A stretch of DNA of 64,000 nt from Streptomyces changanensis (lineage in GTDB: Bacteria; Actinomycetota; Actinomycetes; Streptomycetales; Streptomycetaceae). The stretch lies in assembly GCF_024600715.1 (NCBI RefSeq), contig NZ_CP102332.1, positions 3,534,001 to 3,598,000 of the forward strand, in the 5' to 3' direction. Under the pieces are notes generated by a model, which saw only the letters and a program-made list of their open reading frames with translations, did no database searches and was not told where the DNA came from. Positions 224-43,594 of this stretch are shown here, one piece after another (the first letter of the stretch is position 1; every line of letters begins with the position of its first letter). The translations under genes and the position numbers were made by a program.

Positions 224-415
224 ACCCGGGCGCGGGGCAGAGGGGCGCCGCCGCCCGGCGTGGCACCCGGGCAACCGCCCTCCCGCCCGGCATGGCCTCC
301 GGGCAGCCGCACACCGTCACCGGTACCGGTGACGCGGTACCTCCGCCGGGCGGTACCCCCGCCACGCCGTACCGCAGCCGGCCCCCCCCTGCCACGCCGT
401 GGCGCCGTGGCGCCG

Positions 416-36575: not shown

Positions 36576-39142
<2,567 letters not shown>

Positions 39143-40951: not shown

Positions 40952-40968
40952 CCGCGTGCCGGGGCCGG

Positions 40969-41080
40969 GCCGTGCGGGTCAGGAGCCGCCCTCGTGCGGG
41001 GGGCCCGGACCATGCGGGTCCGGGGGCGGCCCTCATGCGGGTCAGGGCCGCCCTCGTGCGAGTCAGGGGCCGTGCGGGTG
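40969..41080. repeat. Irregular CGTGCGGGTC repeats
   Basis: Copies of a GTGCGGGTC-like unit are interspersed with GGGCCGCCCTC strings in the spacer between hspR and the LuxR-type gene. No gene is supported. Confidence 0.45.
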
Positions 41081-41121: not shown

Positions 41122-42159
41122 TCAGTCGTGGCCGCGCGGTGGCTCCTCCGGTCCCGGGGTGCGGGGGGTGAGGTCCTGGTCCTGGTCGAGGATGCCGGAG
41201 CGGGCGATGAGGTAGCCGAGCTGGGCGCGGCTGCCGCTGCCCAGGGTGGAGGCGAGCTTGGCGATGTGGGCGCGGCAGGTGCGGACGTTCATGCCGAGCC
41301 GGCGGGCGATGGCCTCGTCGACGTGGCCCTCGACGAGGAGCTTGGCGATGGACCGCTGGATGCCGCTTATGCCGTTGAGGGCGGGGGCGTACGAGACGAC
41401 CTCCTCCTCCCACGGGATGCCGTGCAGCCAGAACTGCTCGAACACGCCGACGAGGTACTGCACCAGTCCCTCGTGCCGCAGCTCCAGGGCCACCTGGCGG
41501 TCGCTGCGGGCCGGTATGAAGGCGACCTTGCGGTCGACGATGATCAACCGGTCGATGATCTCCTCCAGCGTGCGGACCTCCAGCCCGTACGGCGTGATCC
41601 GCTCGACGTACCCCATGGTCGCCGAGTGGTGCCGCGCGGTGTGCTGGTAGAGGGTCCGCATTCGGACACCGCGGCCCAGCAGGGGCTCCACCCGCCGCAA
41701 GGCGGCCTTGACAGTCTCGGGTTTCCGTCCGCTGCCCGGCTGGATGGTGAGGAGTTCGACCGCGCACTCGTCCGTCACGCGGTCCAGTTCGGCGTTGATG
41801 ACCGCCAGACCCTCCAGGACGTTGATCGCCGCACTGGTGCACGGGGCCGCCGCGGGGATCGTCATGAACGGCTCGAATGCATCGGCCAACGACAGGGCCC
41901 GCTGCCTGCGCTGCTGGATCTCCCGCTCGATGGGGTGTATCAGCTGGTTGAGGGCGATGGACGGAGGCACGGGCCGCAGCCACTGGGAATCGTCCGGATC
42001 CGGATGCAGCAGGGCGAGGTCGATGAGGCAGGGCGCCGCGTCGACCTCCGTACGGGCTATCCGGCCGGCGCGCAGGGCGGCCGCGTACAGGTGCTTTCCG
42101 GCTTCGCACAGCTCGTCATGACTGTGCCCGGTTTCCGGATTGTCCACCTTAGACCGCAT
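41122..42159 (-). CDS. LuxR-type transcriptional regulator of the W-repeat peptide cluster
   Basis: This 345-residue regulator has a C-terminal LuxR helix-turn-helix (IAKLLVEGHVDEAIARRLGM, then CRAHIAKLASTLGS) and a large N-terminal region without a receiver, AAA or PAS signature, which probably binds a ligand or peptide. The ATG at 42159 follows GAGGGGGG; an in-frame start upstream would add a poorly conserved leader. It is transcribed away from a secreted peptide gene, with 128 bp between them, and is the obvious candidate to control it. Confidence 0.82.
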   Translation of the reverse strand: MRSKVDNPETGHSHDELCEAGKHLYAAALRAGRIARTEVDAAPCLIDLALLHPDPDDSQWLRPVPPSIALNQLIHPIEREIQQRRQRALSLADAFEPFMTIPAAAPCTSAAINVLEGLAVINAELDRVTDECAVELLTIQPGSGRKPETVKAALRRVEPLLGRGVRMRTLYQHTARHHSATMGYVERITPYGLEVRTLEEIIDRLIIVDRKVAFIPARSDRQVALELRHEGLVQYLVGVFEQFWLHGIPWEEEVVSYAPALNGISGIQRSIAKLLVEGHVDEAIARRLGMNVRTCRAHIAKLASTLGSGSRAQLGYLIARSGILDQDQDLTPRTPGPEEPPRGHD

Positions 42160-42287
42160 CTGCACCCCCCTCAGGGTCCTGTATTTCAGGAACATGATGC
42201 CTGTACTGGCTGGTGGAAGCGTTCGGAGTGAGCCATCGTCATAGACGCGGGGGAGGAGGTAAGGACAAAAAGAGGTGGAGATCGTCC

Positions 42288-42533
42288 ATGACCAGGATGG
42301 TTCGTGCACTTAGCGCCATAGCTGTCGCCGCGGCGGCCGCGTGCGGTGTCGCCGCCCTCAGCGGCGAGCCGTCGTGGGACACGGTGTCCGCGAACAGCGT
42401 CGTCGCAGGTGAGCCTGCGTGGGAGGTCGGGCCGGCGGGCATCCCTGAGCCTTCGTGGGAGGTCGCCCCGACGACCTTCGGGGAGCCCTCTTGGGACAGC
42501 GCCGACTCCACGCCGACGGGTGTCGCCGCATGA
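42288..42533 (+). CDS. Secreted peptide precursor with four W-containing repeats
   Basis: This 81-residue protein has a signal-like N-terminus (VRALSAIAVAAAAACGVAAL) and then four copies of [GP]EP[SA]W[DE] at residues 26-31, 41-46, 53-58 and 65-70, separated by 12-15 residues. There is no other recognisable domain. Tandem identical cores after a signal sequence are typical of precursors that are cut into several copies of a signalling or bioactive peptide. The codons in the repeats use more T at third positions than neighbours. The next gene starts in an ATGA overlap with its stop. Confidence 0.7.
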   Translation: MTRMVRALSAIAVAAAAACGVAALSGEPSWDTVSANSVVAGEPAWEVGPAGIPEPSWEVAPTTFGEPSWDSADSTPTGVAA

Positions 42534-42847
42534 ACGTCCCCGACGACTCCCGATTCCGCCGCGAGATGGCGTCCGCCTACCGTTCCGGGTGGCACTTCAT
42601 CGACCTCGTCACCGCAGTCCCCCAGGGTGGCGATTCGTTGATGGTCACCCTCTTCGGGGAGCCGATCGTCATCACCCGCGGCGACGACGAGGACATCCGC
42701 GCCTACCGGTGCCTCCGTCGGCCGCGCGGTGCGCCGCAGCCCGTCCGCTGCGCCATCCGCTACGGAATGATCTTCGTCAACCTCGACCAGCGTGACCATC
42801 AGCTGGTCGAGGCCGAGGCCCCCACCGCCACCCCCCGCAGCGCCTGA
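42530..42847 (+). CDS. Small Rieske-like protein without cluster ligands
   Basis: This 105-residue protein is translationally coupled to the repeat peptide (ATGA). The sequence runs like a Rieske oxygenase N-terminal half: WHFIDLVTAVPQGGDSLMVTLFGEPIVITRGDDEDIRAYRC, then RCAIRYGMIFVNL. The CxH..CxxH ligand set is not kept (CLRRPRG in place of CxH), so it probably lacks the 2Fe-2S centre. No catalytic domain follows. It may bind or modify the peptide. A strong hairpin follows. Confidence 0.6.
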   Translation: MNVPDDSRFRREMASAYRSGWHFIDLVTAVPQGGDSLMVTLFGEPIVITRGDDEDIRAYRCLRRPRGAPQPVRCAIRYGMIFVNLDQRDHQLVEAEAPTATPRSA

Positions 42848-42889
42848 GCGATTCCCCCGTCGTTGTAGATCGCTCAGGTGCTTCCCCCA

Positions 42890-42934
42890 CACAGCGGCGC
42901 CATCGTGGACCTGAAACACGATGGCGCCGCTGTG
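42890..42934 (+). terminator. Terminator hairpin of the peptide cluster
   Basis: CACAGCGGCGCCATCGTG and its exact complement form an 18-bp stem with a 9-nt loop, 42 bp after the last stop codon. It separates the cluster from the repeats that follow. Confidence 0.8.
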
Positions 42935-42943
42935 CTGTCCGCG

Positions 42944-43079
42944 TCCCGCGCGCCCCGCGATCCGGGCCCGCGCCGCGCGCCCCGCGATCCGGGCCCGCGC
43001 CGCGCGCCCCGCGATCCGGCCGCGTCCCGCGCGCCCCGGGCGCCCACCCCGCGCCGCGCGCCCCGGGCGCCCACCCCGC
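42944..43079. repeat. 27-bp tandem repeat, about five units
   Basis: GATCC blocks recur at 42959, 42986 and 43013, and related GGGCGCCC blocks continue the same 27-bp phase at about 43040 and 43067. The period is a multiple of three, but no gene is supported across it. Confidence 0.75.
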
Positions 43080-43123
43080 GGTGTGTGCCCCGCGCGCCCG
43101 CCGGGCCCCGCGCGTCCCTCGGT

Positions 43124-43537
43124 CTAGGCCCGTCCCATCGCGCGGGTGAGCGTGATCTCGATCACGACCCGGTCCGGGTTCGGCGTCGGGGTGCGCCCGT
43201 ACCGCTCCGCGTACCGCGCGACGGCGTCCGCGACGACGTCCGGTTCCGTGCGGACCACGGCCAGGCCCTCCAGCGTCGCCCAGCGGCCCGCGGCCACCTG
43301 GCACACCGCGACCCGGGCGCCGTCGGACCCCGCCGCCAGCACGTTCGCCACCTTGCGGCTGTGCTTGTTGGTGATCACCCGGGCCACGCCCCGCGCGCCG
43401 CCGTCCGGGTCGTAGGTGACGCCGACCGGCACCACGTGCGGCGAACCGTCGGGACGGTGGGTCGTCAGGGTGCACATGTGGCGCTCGCGCCAGAAGCTGA
43501 CGTAGGAGGCGCCGGGGTCCCGCAGGTCGATGGCCAT
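43124..43537 (-). CDS. PPOX/F420-dependent reductase-like protein
   Basis: This 137-residue protein of the pyridoxamine-5'-phosphate-oxidase-like fold, in the subgroup that binds coenzyme F420 or FMN, has FWRERHMCTLTTHRPDGSPHVVPVG, NKHSRKVANV, and a C-terminal VVIEITL. It probably reduces or protects a small substrate. TAGGTT lies 6 nt before the ATG, so the mRNA is likely leaderless. It is adjacent to clpB but divergent from it. Confidence 0.83.
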   Translation of the reverse strand: MAIDLRDPGASYVSFWRERHMCTLTTHRPDGSPHVVPVGVTYDPDGGARGVARVITNKHSRKVANVLAAGSDGARVAVCQVAAGRWATLEGLAVVRTEPDVVADAVARYAERYGRTPTPNPDRVVIEITLTRAMGRA

Positions 43538-43573: not shown

Positions 43574-43594
43574 CTTGAGTGGAATAGACTCAAC
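43574..43594 (+). promoter_or_regulatory. HAIR (HspR) box before clpB
   Basis: CTTGAGT-N7-ACTCAAC matches the HspR consensus at 13 of 14 bases, 67 bp before the clpB start. A related GCTGAGTC lies 15 bp downstream. Confidence 0.88.

Follow-up and report, generated by a model that had tools for sequence, protein, structure and literature searches.

A conserved precursor–regulator module beside clpB suggests a polymorphic peptide signalling system in Streptomyces

In Streptomyces, cell-to-cell control of antibiotics is known mainly through butyrolactone-type small molecules, as in the gamma-butyrolactone systems of the AfsA/ArpA type, which control antibiotic production through a TetR-like receptor. 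In agr and ComQXPA, a polymorphic cassette of signal and sensor lies between conserved flanks, with recognition within the same type. The agr system is called polymorphic in PMC10482373. RRNPP systems are described by a Sec-exported precursor of 10–100 aa that matures outside the cell, a receptor with peptide-binding TPRs of 250–500 aa and adjacency of the two genes, and their precursors show intragenic duplications (PMC10075063).

We analyse a gene trio in a 64-kb window, the whole stretch of Streptomyces DNA under study. Like the RRNPP systems of Firmicutes, the trio places a small secreted-looking precursor (81 aa) next to a one-component regulator (345 aa). Unlike them, it is found in Streptomyces, has a TrmB/PLD-like sensor and a LuxR HTH instead of TPRs, and carries a [DEN]xxW core; the system works like RRNPP and is not a member. 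With agr and ComQXPA it shares a variable signal-plus-sensor cassette flanked by conserved genes, and same-type recognition is expected; it differs in that no membrane histidine kinase or modifying protease was seen among its kept neighbours and in having a one-component DNA-binding protein as sensor. It resembles gamma-butyrolactone systems in its link to antibiotic-production control and in the AfsA-related genes near some plasmid regulators, whereas its signal is a peptide precursor and its receptor is not TetR-like. Our data suggest an apparently unreported polymorphic peptide signalling system, RRNPP-like with a different receptor; we found no paper on it in searches of an open-access collection with few subscription papers and preprints.

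The trio and its distribution beside clpB

The layout of the trio (Table 1) agrees with a first-pass annotation made from the DNA letters. The four repeats that it placed at residues 26–31, 41–46, 53–58 and 65–70 of the 81-aa peptide match exactly, the divergent LuxR-type gene does lie 128 bp from the peptide ATG, the 105-residue Rieske-like frame overlaps the peptide stop by ATGA, and the 18-bp hairpin is present at the end of the unit. Pfam and NCBIfam hold no family match for the peptide, a sub-threshold GerE match for the regulator and weak Rieske-type matches for the Rieske-like protein. The trio had also been placed in an HspR-controlled block. It is indeed inside the block running from dnaK to clpB, but control of the trio by HspR is unsupported because no HAIR-like site was found there in a scan of the window allowing up to 2 mismatches, the only such sites being at 36594 (dnaK side) and 43574 (clpB).

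Table 1. Features of the trio in the window, with positions and strands
Feature	Position	Strand	Remark
Regulator, LuxR-type, 345 aa from ATG	41122..42159	(-)	Proposed receptor
Regulator parts (residues), predicted: TrmB-like N-terminal winged helix + coiled coil ~12-107; phospholipase-D-like sensor ~108-255; LuxR-type HTH ~260-325			
Conserved intergenic block, inverted repeat TCCTG-N5-CAGGA + CAGGAACATGATGC	42177..42200	(+)	Proposed operator/promoter element
Precursor peptide, 81 aa, signal-like N-terminus, four cores	42288..42533	(+)	Homologues in 100/100 loci + 4 diverged loci
Signal-like segment, residues 1-25, basic start, Ala/Val-rich core	42288..42362	(+)	Judged from sequence
Core 1 EPSW	42366..42377	(+)	
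Core 2 EPAW	42411..42422	(+)	
Core 3 EPSW	42447..42458	(+)	
Core 4 EPSW	42483..42494	(+)	
Rieske-like protein, 105 aa, cluster-binding part lost	42530..42847	(+)	ATGA overlap with peptide gene
Perfect 18-bp hairpin, arms 42890-42907 / 42917-42934	42890..42934	(+)	After the operon, probable terminator

At a threshold of E 0.001, 209 of 246 Streptomyces genomes had a match to the Rieske-like gene, nine of them by weak matches only (E 1e-4 to 1e-17), and identities among the matches listed were 77–100%. Across the order, its profile found 228 of 293 genomes in two of nine genera, the non-Streptomyces genus contributing a single weak match (2.5e-6). One named record outside Streptomyces, Microtetraspora glauca L120, may be mislabelled.

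We examined 80 named loci, the best 80 of at least 516 relatives, and added 20 lower-scoring and four diverged loci. A LuxR-type gene lies divergently upstream of the Rieske-like gene in all 80 named loci (the match is partial in L109), and ClpB lies downstream in 78, L063 and L135 having no ClpB match; the fetched stretch holds two to five LuxR matches at 37 of the 80. With seven window proteins as the only queries, the genes kept around the Rieske-like gene are LuxR, PPOX and clpB. A diverged form of the module, with Rieske-like identities of 41–45%, occurs in four of the weak-match genomes (L205, L206, L208 and L209). We also fetched 40 of the 46 genomes with no or only weak Rieske-like matches. 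Among 36 pre-clpB stretches lacking the Rieske-like gene, 35 lacked a LuxR match and one (L236) had only a 29% match, whereas all 24 positive loci of that comparison had a LuxR match; hspR is visible in 27 of these negative stretches, and the other nine reach back no more than about 7 kb from clpB. Loss of the Rieske-like gene thus goes with loss of the LuxR gene, and within the stretches covered the module is present or absent as a whole. The genes, which the first-pass annotation had suggested looking for as a set, therefore occur together or are missing together: the trio is a real Streptomyces module, retained or lost as a unit beside clpB.

Precursor cores and their covariation with the sensor

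All 100 loci (80 named and 20 lower-scoring) have a small ORF ahead of the Rieske-like gene, yielding 99 distinct precursors of 48–148 aa (median 71). Peptide ORFs were chosen by position before the Rieske-like gene, a hydrophobic N-terminus and the presence of Trp, with preference for ORFs carrying [DEN]xxW; at L178 and the four diverged loci the peptide was missed by the script and found by eye. Accepted peptides have a basic hydrophobic N-terminus, hydrophobicity being a search filter, with one to nine [DEN]xxW cores after it; L025, from another genome, has twelve. Copy number thus varies across the 100 loci while the W cores are kept, as a check proposed from the window alone had set out to see. 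Asp, Glu or Asn stands at −3 of 330 of the 331 Trp residues after residue 20 in the 99 precursors, a count that takes every such Trp in the accepted ORFs; composition predicts 14.6% (binomial p below 1e-200). The [GP]EP[SA]W[DE] core read from the window peptide is exact there; the core of the family is [DEN]xxW, and EPSW is one of 33 tetramer variants that include DPGW, EPTW, DSTW, DSGW and DIGW. The diverged-locus precursors (four) end in QQDPAWD or QQDPTWG.

Within a precursor the cores are nearly identical. A single tetramer is used throughout in 71 of 81 multi-core precursors, and cores agree in 504 of 534 pairs within precursors, compared with 4986 of 47982 (10%) between them. The window precursor (EPSW, EPAW, EPSW, EPSW) is not of the uniform kind because of its second core, and L059, a close homologue, also belongs to the ten non-uniform exceptions. 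Core residues differ in 37 of 1602 within-precursor comparisons, and where they are identical their codons still differ in 517 of 1565 (33%; a random draw gives 42%); agreement is 68% at W+1 and only 26–32% at flanking spacer positions. Since synonymous codons vary, the cores are alike by selection on amino acids, and recent DNA duplication alone is insufficient. Duplication also contributes, as the 36-bp tandem array (76% matches) in the window peptide gene indicates. Two other ideas about the peptide were rejected: it is not a lipoprotein, Cys19 not being conserved among homologues, and a paralogous peptide in the window genome is not evident, since the search gave three weak matches besides itself and the best, L002, has no such peptide gene.

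Core identity follows the sensor domain of the divergent regulator. In covariation tests on 96 of the 100 loci, core difference correlates with difference in the PLD-like sensor at a partial r of 0.60 given ClpB, followed by the N-terminal part (0.50), the signal segment (0.47), the HTH (0.25) and the Rieske-like protein (0.19); none of 500 permutations reached any of these values, so that effect size, not p, separates them. We then compared 24 disjoint close species pairs (ClpB distance ≤0.03), 12 with the same core (mean 0.016) and 12 with different cores (mean 0.017). Sensor-domain distance is 0.042 in same-core and 0.229 in different-core pairs (p 1.5e-4), and the corresponding values are 6.3% and 42.5% for the signal segment, 0.026 and 0.097 for the HTH (p 1.7e-4) and, without significance, 0.026 and 0.028 for the Rieske-like protein. 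At third codon positions the same-core and different-core distances are 0.158 and 0.445 in the LuxR N part, 0.143 and 0.369 in the PLD-like part, and 0.170 and 0.308 in the HTH; the flanks change little, with 0.142 and 0.156 in PPOX, 0.121 (9 pairs) and 0.123 (5 pairs) in HspR, 0.090 and 0.116 in ClpB (p 0.023), and 0.071 and 0.138 in the second half of the Rieske-like gene (p 0.026). A tandem second regulator, LuxR-2, which has no peptide of its own and evolves fast, shows distances of 0.150 in same-core (3 pairs) and 0.418 in different-core pairs (9 pairs). Because the HTH and LuxR-2 are also raised, and slightly so ClpB and the second half of the Rieske-like gene, part of the pattern could reflect a recombining region.

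Between L079 and L122, DNA identity in 100-bp windows is 88–94% in the HTH, 67–86% in the PLD-like part and 50–60% across the intergenic region and peptide gene, returning to 92–100% from the Rieske-like gene onward. The same-core pairs L078/L083 and L124/L131 keep 85–100% identity across LuxR and peptide; contrary to the pattern, LuxR is strongly diverged in the same-core pair L092/L120. By parsimony, the core changes 36 times on the sensor tree, 47 on the HTH tree, 51 on the Rieske-like tree and 52 on the clpB tree. Where close species differ in core, sensor and peptide stand out as a diverged cassette with similar DNA on both sides; where they share a core, this is mostly not seen. A signal and its receptor would behave in this way.

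The regulator, its control region and the Rieske-like protein

The regulator's N-terminal domain, left unassigned by the first-pass annotation, can now be described as TrmB-like from a predicted model compared with solved structures. Residues 14–258 of the model align with TrmB/PLD folds and residues 263–328 with LuxR HTH domains, and a C-terminal GerE (LuxR) HTH was found. Pfam gave no TPR family in the regulator at E 1, and the catalytic PLD motif HxKxxxxD has no match in it; one regulator paralogue scores 23.2 bits against Pfam TrmB, slightly short of the 25.6 cut-off. On its predicted fold, the regulator is a TrmB-like sensor joined to a LuxR DNA-binding domain. Archaeal TrmB and TrmBL2 likewise combine a winged helix, a coiled coil and a PLD-like domain, and the C-terminal LuxR HTH sets the window regulator apart from them. 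The TrmB domain 2f5t is, by its title, a sugar-binding domain, whereas the ligand proposed here is a peptide.

The region between regulator and peptide genes contains a CA[GA]GAACATGATGC block in 100 of 100 loci, and arms resembling TCCTG-N5/N6-CAGGA in 95 of them, a few with one changed base. The block has one exact copy in the window genome, and of 150 genomes, 109 contain the 14-mer CAGGAACATGATGC, 105 of them as a single copy and four (G075, G079, G091 and G128) as two. A regulon search with GKTCCTGN6CAGGAAC, whose N6 spacing is unlike the window's own N5 site, allowed up to 2 mismatches and found 136+156 matches where the reversed control had 249+239, which is no enrichment; the block being single in most genomes, no regulon was found. 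That the block is conserved across alleles fits the conserved DNA-binding domain, and the regulator may bind there.

By sequence and fold, the Rieske-like protein resembles the Rieske domain of ring-hydroxylating oxygenases (model pLDDT only 73). As the first-pass annotation noted, its sequence contains neither CxH nor CxxH. In alignments to PDB entries, the protein passes from the CxH region to the GxIFxN strand without about 50 residues, the part that carries the second ligand pair; the stretch counts 13 versus 62 residues to 9jp5 and 0 versus 52 to 7vju, with second segments that are weak alone. It thus differs from the N-terminal Rieske domain of those oxygenases in its missing motifs, its missing residues and the lack of a catalytic domain. 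Conservation is strong, with 36 invariant positions among 44 sequences; C61 and C74 occur in at least 90% and are not invariant, and the region of C61, the first Cys, is lost in the four diverged loci. We reject a functional Rieske protein on the missing ligands, the apparently missing cluster subdomain and the loss of the C61 region. Because its sequence has no signal-like start, the protein is probably cytosolic.

Pairs elsewhere, the S. coelicolor link and competing readings

Paralogous regulators elsewhere are also accompanied by candidate precursors. A tblastn search of plasmids with the regulator gave 60 records; 17 among the matches listed were examined, near-copies being skipped. A small secreted-looking [DE]xxW ORF is present at nine of the 17 loci, in six divergent from the regulator, and AfsA-related genes adjoin five. 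The peptide of L273 ends in SGDSAWG and lies beside beta-methylarginine genes; those of L277, L278, L282 and L284 have DDxW motifs near the C-terminus and lie beside AfsA-related, ACP and HAD-IIIC genes; that of L279 (S. globosus) has three DTGWGAP repeats and lies beside NRPS and MbtH genes; those of L281 (Kitasatospora) and L286 end in DTSWGG, and that of L287 in TDLGWG. On chromosomes, we scanned 14 of 30 profile-search loci, leaving out seven orthologues and nine tandem copies at the clpB site, and found a secreted-looking [DEN]xxW ORF at four. The L297 ORF belongs to a genome that lacks the clpB-side module (G088), and the L313 ORF has two DPGWQ; L316 and L319 (ends NGWW and NNDWQ) are less convincing as peptides. 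In all, 13 of 31 paralogue loci have a peptide against 1 of 66 controls (Fisher p 5e-7, a test that overstates independence because L277/L278 and L282/L284 are similar loci), and the single control match is unlike a signal precursor; no peptide was found at the other 18 paralogue loci. At E 1e-40 the regulator profile matched 10 of 246 genomes of the phylum, and no peptide was found in the two non-Streptomyces genomes with a match. Regulator paralogues of the window genome (L140–L145, L306 and L311) were rejected as pairs, no secreted [DEN]xxW ORF being found there.

In S. coelicolor we take hspR to be SCO3668 and clpB to be SCO3661. From this gene order and from length, SCO3664, called a regulator, would be the peptide-side gene, and it is probably the orthologue of the window regulator. 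The Rieske-like proteins of locus L200 and of S. violaceoruber agree at 84 of 85 positions. L200 has three LuxR genes at the module site; the second can be read as 327 aa, and a 327-aa start is also possible for its peptide-side LuxR gene. Table 1 of PMC3282765 gives lengths of 327 aa for SCO3665 and 394 aa for SCO3666, both as LuxR regulators. PMC6585502 describes mini-Tn5 insertions that increased actinorhodin by more than 50-fold, those in SCO3664 among them. Complementation succeeded for 12 of the 16 regulator mutants tested there, a count for the whole set with SCO3664 not singled out.

We propose that the precursor is exported through its hydrophobic N-terminus and cleaved outside the cell into short [DEN]xxW peptides, the repeated cores raising the peptide dose per precursor. 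A short peptide would return through an oligopeptide importer and bind the TrmB-like sensor of the divergent LuxR-type regulator, which would then alter its action at the intergenic block and, at least in S. coelicolor, on antibiotic production. We infer these steps together with the direction of the regulation. The Rieske-like protein, without its cluster, may be a locus-specific accessory, perhaps a cytosolic binder of regulator or peptide. We regard the pairing of regulator and peptide as receptor and ligand as likely, rate the full route of export, cleavage and import lower, and consider the explanation as a whole somewhat more probable than its negation. The first-pass annotation's picture of a secreted multi-copy signal with the regulator as receptor draws support from the kept cores, the covariation and the pairs elsewhere; its Rieske-like gene is not supported as an essential part, because the annotations around the nine plasmid pairs name no such product.

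Several other accounts of the locus were weighed. The peptide might act outside the cell, at the surface or wall, in interactions, or weakly antagonising neighbours, with the LuxR-type protein controlling expression and sensing nothing. Its signal-like N-terminus and Pro/Ala-rich spacers would suit this, and surface proteins are often repetitive; a mere controller, however, is not expected to vary its sensor domain with the core, and 12 of the 18 single-core precursors in the 100-locus set, judged by eye, end in the core at the very C-terminus and measure about 60 aa, as signal precursors do. We think this unlikely. Modification of the cores as a RiPP-like product, with help from the Rieske-like protein, is less likely again: tandem cores, the overlapping gene and Trp, a frequently modified residue, speak for it, but the presumed helper has no cluster ligands and apparently no cluster subdomain, its first Cys is lost in the diverged loci, the kept neighbours are LuxR, PPOX and clpB (with only window proteins as queries), and the plasmid pairs do without a named Rieske-like product. 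RiPP clusters keep a dedicated maturation enzyme with the precursor; here, with the seven window proteins as queries, LuxR and the Rieske-like gene are the genes retained immediately next to the peptide.

A recombination-prone island, in which LuxR and peptide co-vary as exchanged neighbours without functional matching, would account for the variability of LuxR-2 and for the signal segment and HTH also differing between different-core pairs. Against it, core distance tracks the peptide-side LuxR-1 given LuxR-2 (partial correlation 0.38) better than the reverse (0.11), with −0.08 for LuxR-3; the HTH is largely spared in L079/L122 and L081/L089 while sensor and peptide differ; and the more core residues have changed, the larger the sensor distance (0.073, 0.229, 0.284, 0.354; the pairs are not independent). 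We give this account about the same small chance as core modification. Least probable by far is that the small ORF is a regulatory leader whose translation controls the Rieske-like gene and whose product has no role; the ATGA overlap would fit, but core amino acids are constrained though synonymous codons vary, and the same kind of peptide stands beside plasmid regulators with no named Rieske-like product.

Under the signal–receptor explanation, a strain would respond mainly to its own kind of peptide, since core and sensor vary jointly as one allele cassette. A wider version, to which we give slightly less than an even chance, is that Streptomyces holds a repertoire of [DEN]xxW signals, each paired with its own TrmB-LuxR receptor: a polymorphic clpB-side pair in most species plus chromosomal and plasmid pairs near antibiotic or butyrolactone genes. 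Close species may then hear or ignore each other, as their allele types differ. If the explanation is true, the whole genus would possess a second language, made of peptides in several allele types, read by one-component receptors with a fold of their own and linked to biosynthetic clusters, and simple synthetic elicitors for silent clusters could follow; if SCO3664 is the orthologue, the strong actinorhodin effect would be explained. The old question of streptomycete peptide signals can now be tested with short synthetic peptides.

Flanks of the module and HspR sites

The module is bracketed by two imperfect tandem repeats with periods of about 22 and 27. The PPOX-class gene that separates it from clpB is retained in most loci carrying the module, and likewise in most stretches that lack it. 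A search of the window for HAIR-like HspR sites found none at the trio of regulator, peptide and Rieske-like genes.

Features around the module in the window
Feature	Window position	Location	Remark
GC-rich imperfect tandem repeat	40961-41072	one flank of module	period about 22 or 27
GC-rich imperfect tandem repeat	42939-43118	other flank of module	period about 22 or 27
PPOX-class F420-dependent oxidoreductase	43124-43537	between module and clpB	TIGR03618 match
HAIR-like HspR site	36594-36614	dnaK side	1 mismatch
HAIR-like HspR site	43574-43594	before clpB	1 mismatch

Regulator paralogues, the L120 record and SCO2686

Upstream of the LuxR gene on the peptide side, many of the clpB-side loci (within L087-L138) have LuxR paralogues, two to five in number; LuxR-2 evolves rapidly and has no peptide of its own, and LuxR-3 is well conserved. 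One record, L120, titled Microtetraspora glauca, holds a Streptomyces-type module whose peptide is identical in sequence to that of locus L021, and may be mislabelled. In S. coelicolor, SCO2686, which is listed as a LuxR regulator (338 aa), is likewise named an actinorhodin downmodulator (PMC6585502, PMC3282765).

Plasmid-borne regulator-peptide pairs

Secreted-looking DxxW peptides are encoded near plasmid-borne TrmB-LuxR regulators at nine loci (L273, L277, L278, L279, L281, L282, L284, L286 and L287), several of which are adjoined by AfsA-related or NRPS genes. These nine pairs possibly constitute a family of cluster-linked peptide regulators.
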